Assembly: GCA_020351875.1 (NCBI GenBank) | Contig: CP070671.1 | Coordinates: 2,141,253 to 2,205,252 of the forward strand | Source: Chromatiales bacterium | Lineage (GTDB): Bacteria > Pseudomonadota > Gammaproteobacteria > Steroidobacterales > GCA-2729495 | DNA length: 64,000 nucleotides | Reading direction: 5' to 3' | In this document: positions 35,454 through 42,983 of the stretch, one piece after another | How positions within the stretch are numbered: position 1 is the first letter of the stretch | Layout: every line of letters begins with the position of its first letter | Translations under genes and position numbers: made by a program | The notes under the pieces: generated by a model | Seen by the model: only the letters and a program-made list of their open reading frames with translations | What the model was told of the DNA's origin: nothing | Database searches by the model: none

Positions 35454-36464
35454 GTGAGCGAGTTCAAAGGCATACCCATCGTCCGCAGCGGTGATAAATA
35501 CCGGACCGAGAACGGCTTCTCGGCCGTGAAGAACGGTGTGAATCGGCGGCGGGGCTCGAACGAGATCCCGGTAGAGCGCAAGCCGGACTGGCTGCGCGCC
35601 AGGCTGCCCACGGGCGCCGGCTTCCACCGCGTGCGCAGCAACGTGCGTGAACACCGGTTGAGCACGGTCTGCGAAGAGTCGATTTGCCCGAACATCGGCG
35701 AGTGCTGGAACGCCGGCACTGCGACCCTGATGCTCATGGGCAGCGTCTGCACGCGCGCCTGCCGCTTCTGCGCGGTGGATACCGGCAACCCGTCAGGCTG
35801 GCTCGATGCGGACGAACCGGCGCACGCGGCGCGCTCGGTGGAATTGATGGGGTTGAAATACGTGGTGCTCACGTCGGTGGACCGCGACGACCTCGCCGAC
35901 GGCGGCGCCGCGCACTATGCGGCGGCGGTGAGCGCGATCAAGGCCCGCAATCCGGATACCGCCATCGAAGCGCTGACGCCGGATTTTGGCGGCGACCTGG
36001 GGGCGGTGCGCACGGTCGCCGCTGCACCGCTGGCCGTATTCGCGCACAACCTGGAAACGGTGCGGCGGCTCACGCCCGAAGTCCGTGATCCGCGGGCCGG
36101 TTACGACCAGTCACTGGTGGTGCTGCGCGCCGCAAAGACGGTGCGCGACGACCTGTTGACCAAGAGCAGCCTGATGCTGGGGCTCGGCGAGACCGAGACC
36201 GAGGTCCTCCGGGCGATGGACGGTCTGCGCGACGCCGGCGTGGACATACTCACCTTCGGCCAGTACCTGCGGCCCACCATCAATCATTTGCCCGTGCAGC
36301 GTTTCCTCCCGCCCCGGGAATTTCTGCGTTACCGGGAGCTGGGCCTGCAGCGTGGGTTCACCGAGGTGGTTTCCGGTCCGCTCGTGCGGTCCAGCTATCG
36401 CGCGGAACAGGCGCTGGCACGAAACAACGCCGGGCTCGGCACCGCGACGGGGACGACGGGATGA
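35454..36464 (+). CDS. lipA: Lipoyl synthase
   Basis: 336 residues from a GTG. The auxiliary cluster motif [12 protein letters not shown] gives Cys73, Cys78 and Cys84; the radical SAM motif CTRACRFC gives Cys99, Cys103 and Cys106; the C-terminal RSSY loop is present ([10 protein letters not shown]). LipA inserts two sulfurs into octanoyl groups on lipoyl domains of 2-oxoacid dehydrogenases. The octanoyltransferase LipB, often adjacent, is not in this window. The stop overlaps the sohB start (ATGA). Confidence 0.98.
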
Positions 36465-37480
36465 TGGAGTTTCTGTCCGACTACGGCCTGTTCCTGGCCA
36501 AGACCGCCACCCTGCTCGTGGCCCTGGGCATCGCGATTGCGATGATAGCCGGCGCGTCGCGACGCGGTGGCGTCACCCCCGGTATCCAGGTCGACAAGCT
36601 CAACGATCGCTTTCGCGAACTCGGTCGTGCAGTCAGGCGGGCCGCGCTGAACAAGGCGGCGTTCAGGAAACAGGAAAAGGCCGACAAGAAGGCGCGCAAG
36701 AAAGCGGAGAAGGGGGCGGGTGACGACGACCACCGCAAGCGTTTTTTCGTGCTCGACTTCAAGGGTGACATTCGCGCCACCGCGGTCAGCCACTTGCGCG
36801 AGGAAATCAGCGCGGTGGTCAGCGTGGCCAACGGCAATGATGAAGTCGTGCTGAGACTCGAGAACGCGGGCGGCGCGGTGCACGAGCACGGGCTGGCGGC
36901 CTCACAGCTGCTGCGGCTGAAAAGTCGCAAGATTCCGGTGACGGTGATCGTCGACAAGGTCGCGGCCAGTGGCGGTTACATGATGGCCTGCATCGCCGAT
37001 CGCGTCATCGCTGCCCCGTTCGCCGTGATCGGCTCCATCGGTGTGCTGGCGCAGCTGCCGAACTTCAATCGTGCATTGAAAGACCGCGGCGTGGAGTGGG
37101 AGGAAGTGACAGCCGGCAAGTACAAGCGCACCGTGACCATGTTCGGGTCGAATACCGAGGCAGATCGGGAAAAACTGCGTGAAGAGCTGGAAGAAGTGCA
37201 CCGGCTGTTCAAGGGACTGGTAGCCGAGCACCGGCCGACGCTGAACCTGGACCAGGTGGCGACCGGTGAGCACTGGTACGGCACCCGGGCCCTGGAGCTG
37301 GGCCTGGTGGACGAGCTGGGCGCGAGCGACGATTATCTGCTGAACGCGATCGAGCACGGCGATGTGTACCGCGTGCGCTGGAAAGGCAAGCCATCCCTCC
37401 AGGAGCGCGTCATGCATGCGTTGGACGCGGCCGCGGAGGCCTTCGGGCGGGCCCGCTGGGACGGTACCTGGTTTCGCTAA
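36461..37480 (+). CDS. sohB: Inner-membrane serine protease SohB
   Basis: 339 residues of peptidase family S49. An N-terminal helix ([20 protein letters not shown]) is followed by a basic cytoplasmic segment (KKARKKAEK). The protease domain has the SohB N-terminal extension and the nucleophile Ser170 in [14 protein letters not shown], with the general-base Lys near 220 in [10 protein letters not shown]. It likely trims signal peptides or membrane fragments. Coupled to lipA by a four-base overlap, an unusual pairing that may be local. Confidence 0.95.
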
Positions 37481-37533: not shown

Positions 37534-38298
37534 ATGGCCTGGCTATACCGCATTGGACTCTTGGTGCTCGTACTCGCGGGCAGTGGCTGCGCGGTGCCCA
37601 TCATCAGCGAGCGCGAATTGCAAGTGCAGTCTGATGCCGAGTTCCAGAAGATGCGCAACCAGATGGTGGAGTCGCGCGACGCTCGCGTGCGCGGCTATGT
37701 CCAGTGCGTATCGGACGCAATCCTGGCGGAGGTGCAGCAACCCTACGCGAGCCTGAACTGGGAAGTGGTGGTATTCGACGACGAAGCGGTCAACGCGTTC
37801 GCGCTGCCGGGTGGCCAGATCGGGGTGTTCACTGGCCTTCTGAAAGTGGCCGAAAACCAGGACCAGCTCGCGGCGGTCATCGGCCACGAGGTAGCCCACG
37901 TCACCGAGCGCCATTCCTACGAGCAGGTCAACCGGCAGGTCACGACACAGGCCGGGGTTTACGCCGGTGCTGCAGTTCTTGGTGGTGGCCAAACCACCTA
38001 CGATCTGCTGTCGATGGGCGCGCAGATCGGCATCACGCTGCCGTATGGCCGCGGTGCGGAGAGCGAAGCCGATGTCGTCGGGCTGCGTTACATGGCCGAG
38101 GCCGGTTTCGATCCGCGGGCCAGCGTGCAGCTGTGGAAAAACATGGATGCGAAGGGGGGTGCATCGCCGCCCGAGTTCCTGTCTACTCACCCGTCGTCCG
38201 GCACGCGCATTTCCGGCCTGATCGCCCTGTTGCCCGAGGCCCTGGACGGGTTCAATGCGGCGCGTGCCGAAGGCAAGCGCCCCGACTGCCGGCGCTGA
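37534..38298 (+). CDS. M48-family metalloprotease, lipoprotein-like
   Basis: 254 residues with a signal ending around GSGC (Cys19), perhaps a lipoprotein anchor. The zinc motif is HEVAH (118-122) and the third ligand Glu178 is in ESEADVVGLRYMAEAG. The order FALPGGQIGVFTGLL, AAVIGHEVAHVTERHS and FLSTHPSSGTRI is the LoiP/YcaL pattern of periplasmic M48 proteases, which cut misfolded outer-membrane proteins. GGGAAGG lies before the ATG. Four bases from the L,D-transpeptidase gene, in line with an envelope-maintenance operon. Confidence 0.94.
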   Translation: MAWLYRIGLLVLVLAGSGCAVPIISERELQVQSDAEFQKMRNQMVESRDARVRGYVQCVSDAILAEVQQPYASLNWEVVVFDDEAVNAFALPGGQIGVFTGLLKVAENQDQLAAVIGHEVAHVTERHSYEQVNRQVTTQAGVYAGAAVLGGGQTTYDLLSMGAQIGITLPYGRGAESEADVVGLRYMAEAGFDPRASVQLWKNMDAKGGASPPEFLSTHPSSGTRISGLIALLPEALDGFNAARAEGKRPDCRR

Positions 38299-38302
38299 CG
38301 GA

Positions 38303-39433
38303 ATGTCCCTGCGCGCGGTTGCAGTGCTGACGGCGGGCACCCTGCTCGCGGGTTGCAGCCTCGTCGATGCGATCTTTACGCCGCCGGAGGGCGCCGGCAG
38401 CCAGTTGCCGACCCGCGCCGAGCAGCCGTCCCAACCCCCGCTGCCGGCGAATCGCTTCGTGCTGGCAGAAGGCCAGGATGTCGTCGGCGAGTTGCAGATT
38501 ACCCGGGCGCGCGGCGAAGACACGTTTGTCGAGTTCGCCCGCACTTACGGCCTGGGTTTCGACGAATTGCGCGACGCCAATCCGGGGGTGGATCCGTGGC
38601 TGCCCGGCGACGAAACGCCCATCGTGCTGCCCACCCGCTTCGTGCTGCCCGATGCGCCGCGCGAAGGCATCGTGCTGAACGTTGCCGCCAAACGTCTCTA
38701 CTACTATCCACCGGTGATCAACGGCGAGCCGAAGGTCGTCGAGACCTATCCCATCGGCATTGGCCGGGAAGACTGGGCGACACCGACGGGCGCCACCACG
38801 GTGGTTGCCCGGACCCGCGATCCGATCTGGTTCGTCCCGGCCTCGATCCGGCAGGAACATGCCGAGATGGGCGACCCGCTGCCCCCCCAGGTGCCGCCCG
38901 GCCCGGATAACCCGCTGGGCAGCCGGGTGCTGCAGCTGGGTTTGCCGGGGTACCTGATTCACGGGACGAACAAACCTGCCGGTGTCGGCATGCGCGTGAG
39001 TCATGGCTGCGTGCGGCTGTACCCGGAAGACATCGAGTCACTCTACGACCGGATCCCGGTCGGGACCCCGGTCAGGATCGTGAATCAGCCGCTGCTGCTG
39101 GGGCGGAGCGGCAACGACCTGTTGCTGGAAGTTCATCCACCGCTGGCCGAGGACGAGCGTGACGTGCTGTCGGAGTTCGGGCAGCGCACGGCCTACCACA
39201 CGAGGGCCATGCCCAACGGCGCGGCGGCGATCGACCTGTCGCGCGTCGATCTCATCGCCGGGGAACGCCGCGGGTTCCCCGTTTCTGTGCTCGCTGGTGG
39301 TGATGACACGGCCGCGATGCTGCGGCAGGCACGGTGGGTTCAGAATGTCATCGTGCCCGAGCCGCTGCCCGAGCCGGAGCCGGAGTCTGAAGCCGGGCCC
39401 GTCGAGCAGATCGCGGACATAGCTGCGGATTGA
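38303..39433 (+). CDS. L,D-transpeptidase (YkuD family), lipoprotein
   Basis: 376 residues from the ATG at 38303, giving lipobox LLAGC (Cys18). An N-terminal LysM-like segment (FVEFARTYGLGFDELRDANPG then PGDETPIVLPTRFVLP) precedes the catalytic YkuD domain: GIVLNVAAKRLYYYPP, YPIGIGRE, LIHGTNKP and the active site SHGCVRLY (His234, Cys236, Arg238). The tail is rich in Pro-Glu (PEPLPEPEPESE). It should form 3-3 peptidoglycan cross-links or attach a lipoprotein to the wall. Coupled closely to the M48 gene. Confidence 0.94.
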   Translation: MSLRAVAVLTAGTLLAGCSLVDAIFTPPEGAGSQLPTRAEQPSQPPLPANRFVLAEGQDVVGELQITRARGEDTFVEFARTYGLGFDELRDANPGVDPWLPGDETPIVLPTRFVLPDAPREGIVLNVAAKRLYYYPPVINGEPKVVETYPIGIGREDWATPTGATTVVARTRDPIWFVPASIRQEHAEMGDPLPPQVPPGPDNPLGSRVLQLGLPGYLIHGTNKPAGVGMRVSHGCVRLYPEDIESLYDRIPVGTPVRIVNQPLLLGRSGNDLLLEVHPPLAEDERDVLSEFGQRTAYHTRAMPNGAAAIDLSRVDLIAGERRGFPVSVLAGGDDTAAMLRQARWVQNVIVPEPLPEPEPESEAGPVEQIADIAAD

Positions 39434-39516: not shown

Positions 39517-41040
39517 GTGCCGGACGCTGCGTCGAGCGGAATATTCATACTCGAGGATGATTCCTCGGAAGTTCCTACTTTGCTGGGCCGGGAAACCGTC
39601 GCCGCGTTCGTCGGCCCGGCACCCCGCGGCCCTGTCGATGTGCCGGTGGCAATTCGCAGTGTCGCCGAATACCTGAAACGTTTTGGTTGTCCCGACAAGG
39701 ACAGCCGCCTGCAGCATTACCTGGAGCGCTACTTCGGCAACGGCGGCACGCTTGCGGTGGTCGTCAGGGTTTGCCATTCATCGCGGCGCAACCAGATTCA
39801 CCTGCCCGCCGGTGACGCCACGCTGGTGCTCGAGGCCCAGCACCCGGGCCCGCTGGAATACCTGCGCGCGTCCGTCGACTACGACGGCATCCCGCCGGAC
39901 GAAGATTCCTGTTTCAACCTGACCGTGCATCGCCTCGATGGCGGTAGCAGTCCTGTCGTGGTCGAGCAGGAAATCTATCCCGAGGTGTCGGTGGACGCCG
40001 ACGACCCCAACTACGTGGGCGATGCGTTGCATCACTCCGCGCTGGTTCGCCTGCGCGACACCGGCGTGACGCGGCGCCCGATGCCCACCGTGGGTCCGGG
40101 GGCACTGATGAATCCCGACTACGTCTATGCAGACGGCACGCGGCTGCCGGCGGAAATGCTGACCGACTACGACCTGATCGGTTCGCCGCAGGACTGCACC
40201 GGGCTTTATGCGCTTGAGCAGATCGCACGCCTCGACCTGTTGTGCATCGTGCCGCCGGCAGCCGGGTTTTGTCTTGGCCCGGTGGCCCGGTTCGCGGCCG
40301 AGCGCTACTGCCGTCGGCGCCAGGCCCTGCTGCTGGTCGAGCCGCCCGGCCACTGGCAGCTCGCCCGCGACGTCATTGCGGATCGGCAACGCAGCCAGTT
40401 TGCGAGCCCGAACGTGGTCACGTGTTTTCCGTTACCGGGAGACAGCAGTGTGCTGGGCGCGCTGGCCGGCGCGCTGGCCGCGCAGGACCAGGGAAGTGGG
40501 GCGTGGTCCCTGTCGTCGTCCGCTCCGCTGCGCCTGCGCTGCCCGTGGCGGCCTCACCTGGAGTTGTCGGCCAGCGAGATTTCAGCGCTGGTCCGCGCAG
40601 GCGTGAACCCGCTGACCGCGGCCGGGCCAGGCCGACTCGACATGCACGGCGGGGTGACCACCGCCCGGGGTTCCGGGCTGGCACCGGAATGGTGTGCGCT
40701 GCGCTGGCGGCGCACAGCGCTGTTCGCGGTGTCGGGCATCGTGCAGAACAGCCGCTGGATGCTGTTCCGGCGCGACGCATCCGAGTGTATCGCCGACCTG
40801 CGTGCGCAGCTGCAGGCCTTCCTGGCCGCATTGCAGGCGAACGGCGCCCTGGCGGGCATTCGCGACAAGGAAGGCTGGTTCCTGCAGGAGCCCAGGCTGC
40901 GCGGCGATGAACTCGAAATCGAATTCGGCATCGCGTTGCGGCGGCCGGGTGAGTTCCTGCACTTTCGTGTCATACAGCGTGGCGGCGACGCGGAGGTGCG
41001 CGAGCTTGGCTGGCAGCCGGCTTTGGCCGTCGCGATCTGA
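39517..41040 (+). CDS. Contractile phage-tail-sheath-like protein, orphan
   Basis: 507 residues from a GTG. The N-terminus follows the sheath family: an opening strand SGIFILEDD, then ETVAAFVGPAPRGPVDVPV, SVAEYLKRFG and YFGNGGTLAVVVRV (residues 5-85). The middle is variable and includes DCTGLYALEQIARLDLLCIV. The C-terminal domain (about 381-507) has RRTALFAVSGIVQNSRWMLF, RAQLQAFLAALQANGALAG, GWFLQEPRL and EIEFGIALRRPGEFLHFRV, the helix-plus-strand block that interlocks sheath subunits. No tube, baseplate, spike, ATPase or chaperone gene is near, and no prophage. It shares an operon (12 bases) with a gamma-glutamylcyclotransferase. It is not TssC. Function unknown. Confidence 0.82.
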   Translation: MPDAASSGIFILEDDSSEVPTLLGRETVAAFVGPAPRGPVDVPVAIRSVAEYLKRFGCPDKDSRLQHYLERYFGNGGTLAVVVRVCHSSRRNQIHLPAGDATLVLEAQHPGPLEYLRASVDYDGIPPDEDSCFNLTVHRLDGGSSPVVVEQEIYPEVSVDADDPNYVGDALHHSALVRLRDTGVTRRPMPTVGPGALMNPDYVYADGTRLPAEMLTDYDLIGSPQDCTGLYALEQIARLDLLCIVPPAAGFCLGPVARFAAERYCRRRQALLLVEPPGHWQLARDVIADRQRSQFASPNVVTCFPLPGDSSVLGALAGALAAQDQGSGAWSLSSSAPLRLRCPWRPHLELSASEISALVRAGVNPLTAAGPGRLDMHGGVTTARGSGLAPEWCALRWRRTALFAVSGIVQNSRWMLFRRDASECIADLRAQLQAFLAALQANGALAGIRDKEGWFLQEPRLRGDELEIEFGIALRRPGEFLHFRVIQRGGDAEVRELGWQPALAVAI

Positions 41041-41052
41041 CGCGGCGGCGGC

Positions 41053-41553
41053 ATGACGCTGCATTACTTCGCCTACGGCTCCAACATGCACCCCGGCCGC
41101 TTGCAGGCCCGCATCAGCTCCGCCGTTCCGTTGAGTGTCGCCCGCCTGCCCGACCATCGTCTCGCCTTTCACAAGCGCGGCGCGGACGGGTCCGGCAAGG
41201 GCAACATCGTCGCCGCGGCGAATACCGAGGTCTGGGGCGTCATCTATACCATCAGCGTGGCCCATGCAGTCGCACTGGACGACATCGAGGGTCCGGGGTA
41301 CTCGCGGGTGGACCTGGAGGTTGTAGAGATCACCAACGGTGAGAGCGTGTCCGCTGTCTCCTATCGGGCGCGGACCGGGTCAATCGCTGATGACCTCTAT
41401 CCTTTCGACTGGTACCTCGACTTCCTGCTGCACGGGGCCGCGCATCACGGCCTGCCCGGGCGCTACCTTGAGCAGTTGCGACGCGTGACAACGATCACCG
41501 ATAAGGATTCCGAGCGCGCGCGGCTGGCCGCAGACCTGCTGGTCCCCCGCTGA
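41053..41553 (+). CDS. Gamma-glutamylcyclotransferase-like protein
   Basis: 166 residues with the GGCT fold: HYFAYGSNMHPGRL (substrate loop YGSN, 8-11), NIVAAANTEVWGVIYTI and the catalytic Glu79 in LDDIEGPGYSRV. Family members release 5-oxoproline from gamma-glutamyl compounds. Twelve bases after the sheath-like gene, so co-expressed with it. A gamma-glutamyl link with the PuuA/PuuD enzymes 17 kb away is conceivable, but nothing in the sequence supports a direct connection. Confidence 0.88.
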   Translation: MTLHYFAYGSNMHPGRLQARISSAVPLSVARLPDHRLAFHKRGADGSGKGNIVAAANTEVWGVIYTISVAHAVALDDIEGPGYSRVDLEVVEITNGESVSAVSYRARTGSIADDLYPFDWYLDFLLHGAAHHGLPGRYLEQLRRVTTITDKDSERARLAADLLVPR

Positions 41554-41630
41554 ACTTCGAATTGGCCAGGCGTGCCGACGCGTCGGGCGATAACCGCACG
41601 GTGGACGGGCACCGGCGCGTCGGCGGATGC

Positions 41631-41644
41631 GTGACACAGGTCAC
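41631..41644 (+). promoter_or_regulatory. CRP-like half-sites GTGA-N6-TCAC
   Basis: GTGACACAGGTCAC keeps the inner four bases of both CRP half-sites with the correct six-base spacer. Its centre is about 33 bases before the AT-rich -10-like block at 41668-41673. That places it near -42 for a start site at about 41680, the usual class II activator position. Confidence 0.5.
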
Positions 41645-41667
41645 GCGCAAACGGGTGGCCAATGGGT

Positions 41668-41673
41668 TATTAA
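41668..41673 (+). promoter_or_regulatory. Possible -10 element TATTAA
   Basis: TATTAA lies in the AT-rich block GGGTTATTAACTTAATC just ahead of the ATG at 41684. No -35 hexamer is needed if an activator sits at the CRP-like site. Transcription would begin within a few bases of the start codon, and no Shine-Dalgarno sequence is visible, so the message may be leaderless. Confidence 0.4.
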
Positions 41674-41683
41674 CTTAATCAGC

Positions 41684-42319
41684 ATGAGCACCGATTACGC
41701 GACAGCGGACGGGCTCCAGCCCGTCGCCAGCCTCACGGAGTTTTTTCGCGACTCCGTCGACGCGGCCATGGCCGCGAACCGCGTGGTGCTAGATTCCCAG
41801 ACCTCACACTACGTCGTCACGCTGCTGACTCTCTTTGCCCGCTCGGAAGACTTCTACGAAGCTGGTCCCGACGGCCCGGAACTGAGACCGCTCGCGCTGA
41901 TGCTGGCCGACGCGGCGGAAGCGCGCAGCGAAGAAGAACGCCACTTCGCCCTGCAACGTGTCGGCGATGTCGCGCTGTTCATGGCCGGTTTCTTCGACGA
42001 TTTCCTGCAACGCGCCCCGGTGGGCGTGGGCTACTACGTGAACATGGGCGGCAGCGCGTACCGCACGCTCGCCGGCAGTATCCGGGGCACGCTGCGCGGC
42101 CGGGTGATGTGCGAGGTGTTCGAAGAACTCGGCGCGAAATTCATCGCCATGGTCGATGTCTTGAACGAGGTCCGCGACTCGGCCCGCGGCAATGATGTGG
42201 GTGATGCGTTGCGCTGGTACGAAGCCTGGGTGCGGACCGGCAGCCCCCGCGCGGCGCGGTTGCTGCGCGAGCAGGGTATCGAACCGCTGGAGTCGGCGTG
42301 CAACCGGCACGAGCACTGA
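41684..42319 (+). CDS. Helical protein of unknown function, first of a pair
   Basis: 211 residues from the ATG at 41684 (an upstream in-frame start at 41627 would overlap the CRP-like site). No signal peptide or membrane helix. The chain looks all-helical: TEFFRDSVDAAMAANRV, SHYVVTLLTLFAR, FALQRVGDVALFMAGFFDDFL, GYYVNMGGSAYRTLAG, FEELGAKFIAMVDVLNEV. The GG-SAYR segment and EELG block resemble four-helix metal-binding proteins, but no clear ligand set is visible. Family not recognised. The next gene follows after 10 bases. Confidence 0.68.
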   Translation: MSTDYATADGLQPVASLTEFFRDSVDAAMAANRVVLDSQTSHYVVTLLTLFARSEDFYEAGPDGPELRPLALMLADAAEARSEEERHFALQRVGDVALFMAGFFDDFLQRAPVGVGYYVNMGGSAYRTLAGSIRGTLRGRVMCEVFEELGAKFIAMVDVLNEVRDSARGNDVGDALRWYEAWVRTGSPRAARLLREQGIEPLESACNRHEH

Positions 42320-42329
42320 TCGTCCGGGC

Positions 42330-42983
42330 ATGCTCCGCAACCTGCAGAAATTTCTTGCCCGGCTCTACCGCATCGAGCCGCCGGCGGACGTGCGCGACTA
42401 CCTGATCACCGATGCCCGCCACGCGCGGGCGCTGGAAGGTGACGGCGGCCGGGAGGCCGAAGAGAAGCTGCTGGTTGCCGAAAATGACGACGAACTCCAC
42501 CTGGCGCTGTACCTCGATGCCGAACTCCTCGAGCGCCTCGCATCCCAGGACCCGTTCGAATGCCTGGGTGCCGACAACTTCGAGGATTTCTGCAAGGTGA
42601 TCGAAGGACTCAGTCACTTCAATTACCTGACCTGGAACGCTTTGGCTGATCGGCGCGTGACGTTGCTGGAACTCGAACTGCAGGCGGAAATCGACAAGTA
42701 CATCGGCGCCCGCACGCTGGCTACGCACCAGGCGCGCCCGGAACTCGCGGCCAGGCTGCTCGCGGTGCTGTTCGAATCGCCGCGTTTCCACACGACCCTG
42801 TCAGCAGCCGAGTACGAGCGCTATTTCCACGCCGGGCGCTTCGCCGGCTGGTACTGTCGCAGCCTGGAAGCGCGCTACGCCGGCGGATTGCCGGGCGGCG
42901 ACATGCTCGACGAGCTGCGGGCGTTCTACCGCCTGCCACAACCGGCCAAGCTCAGTCACATCCACAGCGCCGCCTACGCCTGA
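42330..42983 (+). CDS. Protein of unknown function, second of the pair
   Basis: 217 residues from the ATG at 42330. Starts LRNLQKFLARLYRIEPPADVRDYLITD, then ALEGDGGREAEEKLLVAENDDELHLALYLD continues as an acidic helix-rich domain, followed by FEDFCKVIEGLSHFNYLTWNAL and a C-terminal YFHAGRFAGWYCRSLE and LRAFYRLPQPAKLSHIHS block. No signal or membrane segment. I do not recognise the family. Ten bases behind the preceding helical protein, so likely one functional unit. Confidence 0.68.
   Translation: MLRNLQKFLARLYRIEPPADVRDYLITDARHARALEGDGGREAEEKLLVAENDDELHLALYLDAELLERLASQDPFECLGADNFEDFCKVIEGLSHFNYLTWNALADRRVTLLELELQAEIDKYIGARTLATHQARPELAARLLAVLFESPRFHTTLSAAEYERYFHAGRFAGWYCRSLEARYAGGLPGGDMLDELRAFYRLPQPAKLSHIHSAAYA

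Follow-up and report, generated by a model that had tools for sequence, protein, structure and literature searches.

Work on contractile sheaths treats them as components of machines that kill or inject. An excerpt of PMC9230969 describes a shared sheath N/C-terminal core that contacts the tube and is responsible for tail assembly, plus added domains of moderate conservation, and in T6SS sheaths the subunits are interconnected by N- and C-terminal linkers (excerpt of PMC5797969). Domesticated tails are treated as secretion devices in the excerpted part of PMC8987985, and a large survey, as excerpted from PMC12210884, drops gene sets without tube, baseplate or sheath-initiator genes, a filter through which a tube-less sheath family could escape notice. 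Polysheaths are tube-less polymers formed in vitro: a phage sheath protein can self-assemble into tubes without other phage proteins, and the polysheaths described come from phages with a complete tail (PMC6357053). Among openly licensed PMC full texts we recognised no paper reporting a tube-less sheath of the kind described here or this use of one. The orphan protein that we analyzed is a sheath by descent and by fold, and is a contractile system by none of the gene-content tests made.

The protein is encoded in the window, which is the whole 64-kb stretch of DNA analyzed. Its surroundings are given below with counts from 61 orphan loci, namely the window and 60 loci picked from matches in its order (a non-random choice, spread over families and with long contigs preferred); contigs that end within a locus make these counts minimum values.

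35454..36464, + strand: lipoyl synthase (LipA), named from Pfam on its cluster representative; cluster in 36 of 61 loci
36461..37480, + strand: SohB-like S49 peptidase, named from Pfam on its cluster representative; cluster in 32 of 61 loci
37534..38298, + strand: M48 family peptidase; cluster in 28 of 61 loci
38255..39433, + strand: L,D-transpeptidase (YkuD, LdtE-like) with a lipobox-like N-terminus by eye; 47 of 61 loci
39517..41040, + strand: tube-less (orphan) sheath protein, 507 aa, GTG start; assigned from the ORF, PHROG, PDB and AF2
41053..41553, + strand: gamma-glutamylcyclotransferase (GGCT, AIG2-like), 12-base gap after the sheath stop; 6 of 61 loci

The first-pass annotation had named the M48 protease, L,D-transpeptidase and GGCT as neighbors, including the 12-base gap, and had the sheath standing without tube, baseplate or ATPase genes in 64 kb, and both descriptions hold. 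Profiles for the tube, the T4-type baseplate protein, Pvc16, AAA and eCIS_core, all built from eCIS loci, matched nothing in the window at E <= 1, and the sole match of the sheath profile was the sheath itself.

Sequence homology and fold securely identify the product of ORF 39517..41040 as a contractile-sheath homologue. The PHROG family phrog_23 ('tail sheath') matches residues 4-448 (E 3.4e-16), and a phmmer search of PDB sequences returned the Streptomyces coelicolor CIS sheath 8bky_A (E 1.5e-15) and the sheath 9ezm (E 5e-15). As a single sequence the protein falls below the curated Pfam cut-offs (Gp18_domIII_N E 0.028, Phage_sheath_1C E 0.061) and has no match in NCBIfam, so annotation may miss it; Phage_sheath_1C is detected at E <= 0.001 in 25 of the 59 aligned family members. 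The AlphaFold2 model, computed with these 59 members as the alignment, reached a pLDDT of 88.1 and a pTM of 0.89, with a low-scoring N-terminus (mean pLDDT 35 for residues 1-10 and 59 for residues 11-20) in which no signal peptide was apparent by eye. Foldseek searches with the model gave 95 matches at E <= 0.001, led by 9ezm_A (E 1.2e-22), and the best 50 of the 95 were all contractile tails, bacteriocins, injection systems or sheath proteins. Structural alignment with VIA-align to 9gts_2A, the S. coelicolor CIS sheath, covered 313 residues (Z 31.6, rmsd 2.7), so that structure prediction, proposed earlier as a check on the sheath assignment, returned a sheath fold that matches the sheaths of injection systems. 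The corresponding model of an eCIS relative, L121, was poor (pLDDT 62.4 from 11 alignment rows) and was left unused.

The orphan sheath is an order-wide family and no one-off. A contig search with the single window protein found nothing, and the family profile was then used; at least 592 stretches of genome contigs matched, at least 511 of them encoding a relative (80 of these were kept), a set that may include ordinary CIS sheaths. Named loci came from records labelled Woeseiaceae, Steroidobacteraceae, Woeseia and Thioalkalivibrio sp. XN8, and many other records were labelled merely Gammaproteobacteria or Proteobacteria. Within the same family the sheath was present in 38 of 40 genomes and in 28 of 28 of the better ones, the two misses being 70% and 78% complete. 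Across the order 231 of 296 sampled genomes had a match, among them 168 of the 204 better ones, and 56 of 68 genera were represented; some of the 231 matches are weak and could be ordinary CIS sheaths (for example G047 at E 1.4e-6 and G286 at E 1.5e-5). By hand count 218 of the 231 genomes have a single match and 13 have more than one, and among the order matches listed no reading frame contains an internal stop. The same profile matched 49 of 369 genomes in a sample of the class, own order included, and 39 of 398 in a sample of the phylum, with ordinary CIS sheaths among the matches in both.

A search for a tube or a standard sheath gene set elsewhere in the genome, suggested by the first-pass annotation, found neither: the genome (one contig, 3.49 Mb, 95.57% complete) encodes the protein once, with one match to the family profile, and has no match to a tube profile built from eCIS loci. 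This profile replaced PF06841, which had no match in 14 control genomes either and therefore gave no usable negative for the window's own genome; PF17482 also found nothing there, a weak result since it misses the window's own sheath as well. The replacement does find tubes, matching 12 of the 14 IMG/VR sheath loci examined (80 fetched), the five best included. In the order it matched 9 of 296 genomes, 8 of them among the 231 sheath-positive ones; by hand comparison of the two lists the other 223 gave no tube match, including the one-contig genomes G000, G019, G021, G084, G099 and G220. The baseplate wedge family gp25 had no match in the 40 genomes of the family but did match 2 of 14 controls, and five eCIS profiles had no match in 69 orphan loci (60 long and 9 short ones from overlapping genomes). 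One genome of the order, G045, has an orphan sheath and, apart from it, a CIS-like cluster (L133:7687-13053) with two sheath ORFs and a tube ORF of its own.

A tblastn search of 50,697 INPHARED phage records returned no match to the orphan at E <= 1e-5, and its best full-length relatives in IMG/VR share 28-30% identity and have tube ORFs beside them. With no INPHARED match and none in the window to the tail profiles used, the locus does not qualify as a prophage, and with the accompanying parts absent from the window and the 69 orphan loci it does not qualify as an eCIS gene cluster. The orphan shares with the eCIS and CIS sheaths (S. coelicolor 8bky/9gts, Pvc2, Afp2) the same fold over residues from about 15 to 476 and homology by profile and tree, but is encoded without adjacent tube, baseplate, ATPase or effector genes, has lost hallmark arm and core motifs, and is constrained in an outer domain that is variable in eCIS. 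To the phage tail sheaths (P1, T4 gp18, PHROG 23) it is linked by fold and by the PHROG match, whereas it has no INPHARED match at that threshold, sits in a chromosomal housekeeping locus, and has its nearest relatives among those found in eCIS-type clusters. Like a polysheath it is a sheath protein without a tube; unlike one it has degenerate arms, and its polymerization is hypothetical.

We placed the family in two trees, both made with a quick method and supported by SH-aLRT values, without bootstrap. The first tree comprises 90 sheaths. A single branch (SH-aLRT 100, 0.72 changes per column along the stem) sets all 59 orphans apart from the rest, and with nine eCIS sheaths of other orders they make up a group of 68 rows; in a second tree containing 19 eCIS sheaths, including ones from IMG/VR and the tube-less L234, the orphans again form one group. 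An ORF of the tube cluster adjoins the sheath in all nine of these nearest out-of-order relatives, more eCIS clusters follow as far as the contig reaches, and the eCIS_core cluster is present in five of the nine stretches, some of them truncated at the end of a contig. Pfam identified a sheath, a tube (PF06841, E 1.2e-47), T4_baseplate, Pvc16_N, AAA and eCIS_core in L121, from which the part names are taken, with L126 and L129 serving for two parts. The orphan alignment comprises 59 of the 61 loci (L034 and L049, close to retained rows, were omitted), the eCIS sheath alignment 11 of 16 ORFs, the tube alignment 11 of 15 (without L122, which has an over-extended start, and the divergent ORFs of L133 and two of L134), and the transpeptidase alignment the window and 15 of 17 others (without the over-extended L051 and L086); start codons of family members were assigned by script and four by hand.

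Within the orphan gene tree the families f1, f7, f11, f12 and f2 each group together, so that the groups follow taxonomic families, as vertical descent predicts. The surroundings are shared too, as the cluster counts listed above show. The 14 closest of all orphan pairs have dN/dS values of 0.10-0.31, and the 59-sequence alignment has 26 invariant and 36 nearly invariant columns at a mean pairwise identity of 0.38. A single capture, after which the gene was inherited vertically under purifying selection, fits the tree and the dN/dS values. The idea of a domesticated sheath under selection, raised in the first-pass annotation, is well supported by this one origin, by the low dN/dS and by the distribution of sheath and tube matches (38/40 and 231/296 genomes for the sheath, 9/296 for the tube).

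A tube-less sheath was also observed in another family of the class. In G781 an eCIS-type sheath (L234:9233-11463) has an AAA-ATPase fragment of 201 aa as its neighbor, and the 19.5 kb of the locus gave no tube match. We considered and rejected L234 as a member of the orphan group, since it falls outside that group in the tree and keeps the canonical motifs; it may mark a separate, independent step in the decay or capture of an eCIS.

We compared constraint along the protein by dividing the identity of each region by the overall identity of the same pairs, with the following parts of the orphan of particular relevance.

39517..39600, + strand: N-terminal arm, residues 1-28; YPGVYxEE lost, GIxVxE kept in most family members
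39787..40221, + strand: outer domain, residues 91-235; the orphans' second most conserved region after residues 29-90, with DYDxxGS at 217-223
40951..41037, + strand: C-terminal arm, residues 479-507; canonical KPAEF...QQIAG gone, with a tail specific to the lineage (here ELGWQP) in its place

In eCIS cross-group pairs (overall identity 0.37) the relative values are 1.54 for the N-arm, 0.58 for the outer domain, 1.62 for the C-terminal part and 1.45 for the C-arm, and a third, more divergent eCIS group shows a milder form of this canonical pattern (1.10, 0.65, 1.26 and 1.42, respectively). Orphan pairs at 30-40% identity give 0.74 for the N-arm, 1.21 for the outer domain, 0.87 for the C-terminal part and 0.46 for the C-arm, with 1.29 for the N-terminal domain adjoining the outer domain. 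The contrast is weaker in closer orphan pairs of 45-70% identity (outer domain 1.03, C-arm 0.95, N-arm 0.95). Relative to eCIS sheaths, constraint is inverted in distant orphans, with the outer and adjoining N-terminal domains conserved and the arms not.

The motif counts are unambiguous. YPGVYxEE, KAPAG and WGxRT are each absent from all 59 orphans and present in all nine near eCIS sheaths; KPAEF is likewise absent from the 59 orphans and present in eight of the nine, FEPND occurs in one orphan and in eight of the nine, whereas DYDxxGS is present in 51 of 59 orphans and in none of the nine. Eight eCIS rows added to the second tree agree (YPGVYxEE 8/8, KPAEF 7/8, DYDxxGS 0/8); these rows were chosen by KAPAG and WGxRT, and just their other motifs are informative. 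The eCIS motifs are thus missing from both interlocking arms, and what is left is the weaker GIxVxE strand pattern of the N-arm (G8 in 52 of 59 rows, E13 in 47 of 59), while the orphan C-terminal tails are specific to lineages. The first-pass view of a complete sheath holds for the 507-residue length and the homology, but not for an intact C-terminal interlocking block, where the canonical C-arm has been replaced. Together, the inverted constraint and the lost motifs suggest that selection has moved off tube binding and contraction and onto a surface of the outer domain.

We next consider the surroundings of the gene. All 61 loci are housekeeping neighborhoods in which the gene immediately downstream varies by family, and the commonest neighbor of the orphan sheath is the L,D-transpeptidase upstream. 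We rejected this enzyme as an obligate partner, as it was not seen in 14 of the 61 loci and is kept without the sheath in genus g39: eight of nine g39 genomes have no sheath match, yet match the transpeptidase profile at E <= 2e-147. All six g39 loci that were read (L237-L242, compared with L067) have a clean empty site with the transpeptidase surroundings kept and no trace of a sheath, indicating that the sheath is dispensable there. Neighbor conservation across the 61 loci identified no obligate neighbor and no partner.

We propose that a sheath protein, kept without its machine and with its conserved parts changed, has probably taken on a new role in the cell. Our preferred reading, of moderate confidence, is a non-contractile, soluble cytoplasmic scaffold whose outer domain binds a cellular partner. 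The orphan would no longer clamp onto a tube or contract; its mesh-building, tube-facing arms and C-terminal region no longer show the hallmark motifs, and the outer and adjoining N-terminal domains now carry the constraint. The scaffold might be a monomer, a small ring or a short oligomer held by the residual N-arm strand, with an outer-domain partner possibly tied to envelope maintenance. We favor a scaffold because it accounts for two changes at once, the lost arms and the constraint gained by the outer domain. The envelope link is proposed because the usual neighbors are the L,D-transpeptidase and proteases, and it is weak, since the transpeptidase is non-obligate and the immediate neighbors change. 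More tentatively still, and with the odds somewhat against it, the family may be a novel kind of structural protein in the cytoplasm, a ring or filament that does not contract, that acts through the outer domain once exposed on the surface, and that is coupled to envelope upkeep.

The main rival to a scaffold is a tubular filament, in which the orphan polymerizes into hollow, polysheath-like tubes that serve the cytoplasm as a cytoskeletal or structural filament. The model shows a complete sheath fold, the polysheath precedent shows tubes forming from sheath protein alone, and the retained GIxVxE strand means that polymerization could still occur. An ordinary sheath tube, however, needs interlocking arms, and both arms are without canonical motifs in 59 of 59 orphans and have low relative constraint in distant pairs, which counts against such a tube, as do the newly constrained outer domain and the lineage-specific tails; we consider the filament rather unlikely. 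Far less probable is a functional sheath-GGCT pair in gamma-glutamyl metabolism. The first-pass annotation had put forward the sheath-GGCT operon as a specific association on the strength of the 12 bases between the genes, and hydantoinase/oxoprolinase-type genes lie near 21 of the 61 sheaths, but GGCT is downstream in just 6 of 61 loci, from two families, and absent from the other 55, the hydantoinase/oxoprolinase is on the opposite strand, and the downstream gene varies by family, so that the association is a local one.

An injection system distributed over the genome, with tube and baseplate genes away from the sheath, could account for the eight sheath-positive genomes with a tube match and for the separate cluster of G045. 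It is largely refuted, and we give it hardly any weight, by the 223 of 231 genomes without a tube match, one-contig genomes included, by the 0 of 40 result for gp25 in the family, and by a tube profile that does find tubes where expected. Least credible of all is a decaying prophage or eCIS remnant drifting without function: the clean loss in one genus and the fast divergence are in its favor, whereas order-wide retention, open frames among the matches listed, dN/dS of 0.10-0.31, the 62 invariant or nearly invariant columns (26 and 36) and an orphan-specific motif in 51 of 59 members oppose it, and the dN/dS and retention refute decay as a general account. Returning to the scaffold, the reversed constraint points to the outer domain as the first target for mutagenesis. 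The family, from an order that includes Woeseiaceae, offers a direct and testable example of how a component of an injection machine can be rebuilt for a different cellular task, and the clade that has kept and rebuilt the sheath is a large one.

Two further features of the neighborhood were observed. A hydantoinase/5-oxoprolinase-type protein is encoded on the opposite strand near the sheath in the 21 loci mentioned above (e.g. L074:10481-14119); the g39 empty sites are also without it, and G250 of the same genus has both it and the sheath. This protein and the GGCT could both concern 5-oxoproline. Downstream in the window, positions 41627-42983 encode two proteins without a Pfam match, whose clusters (c10 and c18) recur in 18 and 10 of the 61 loci, respectively.
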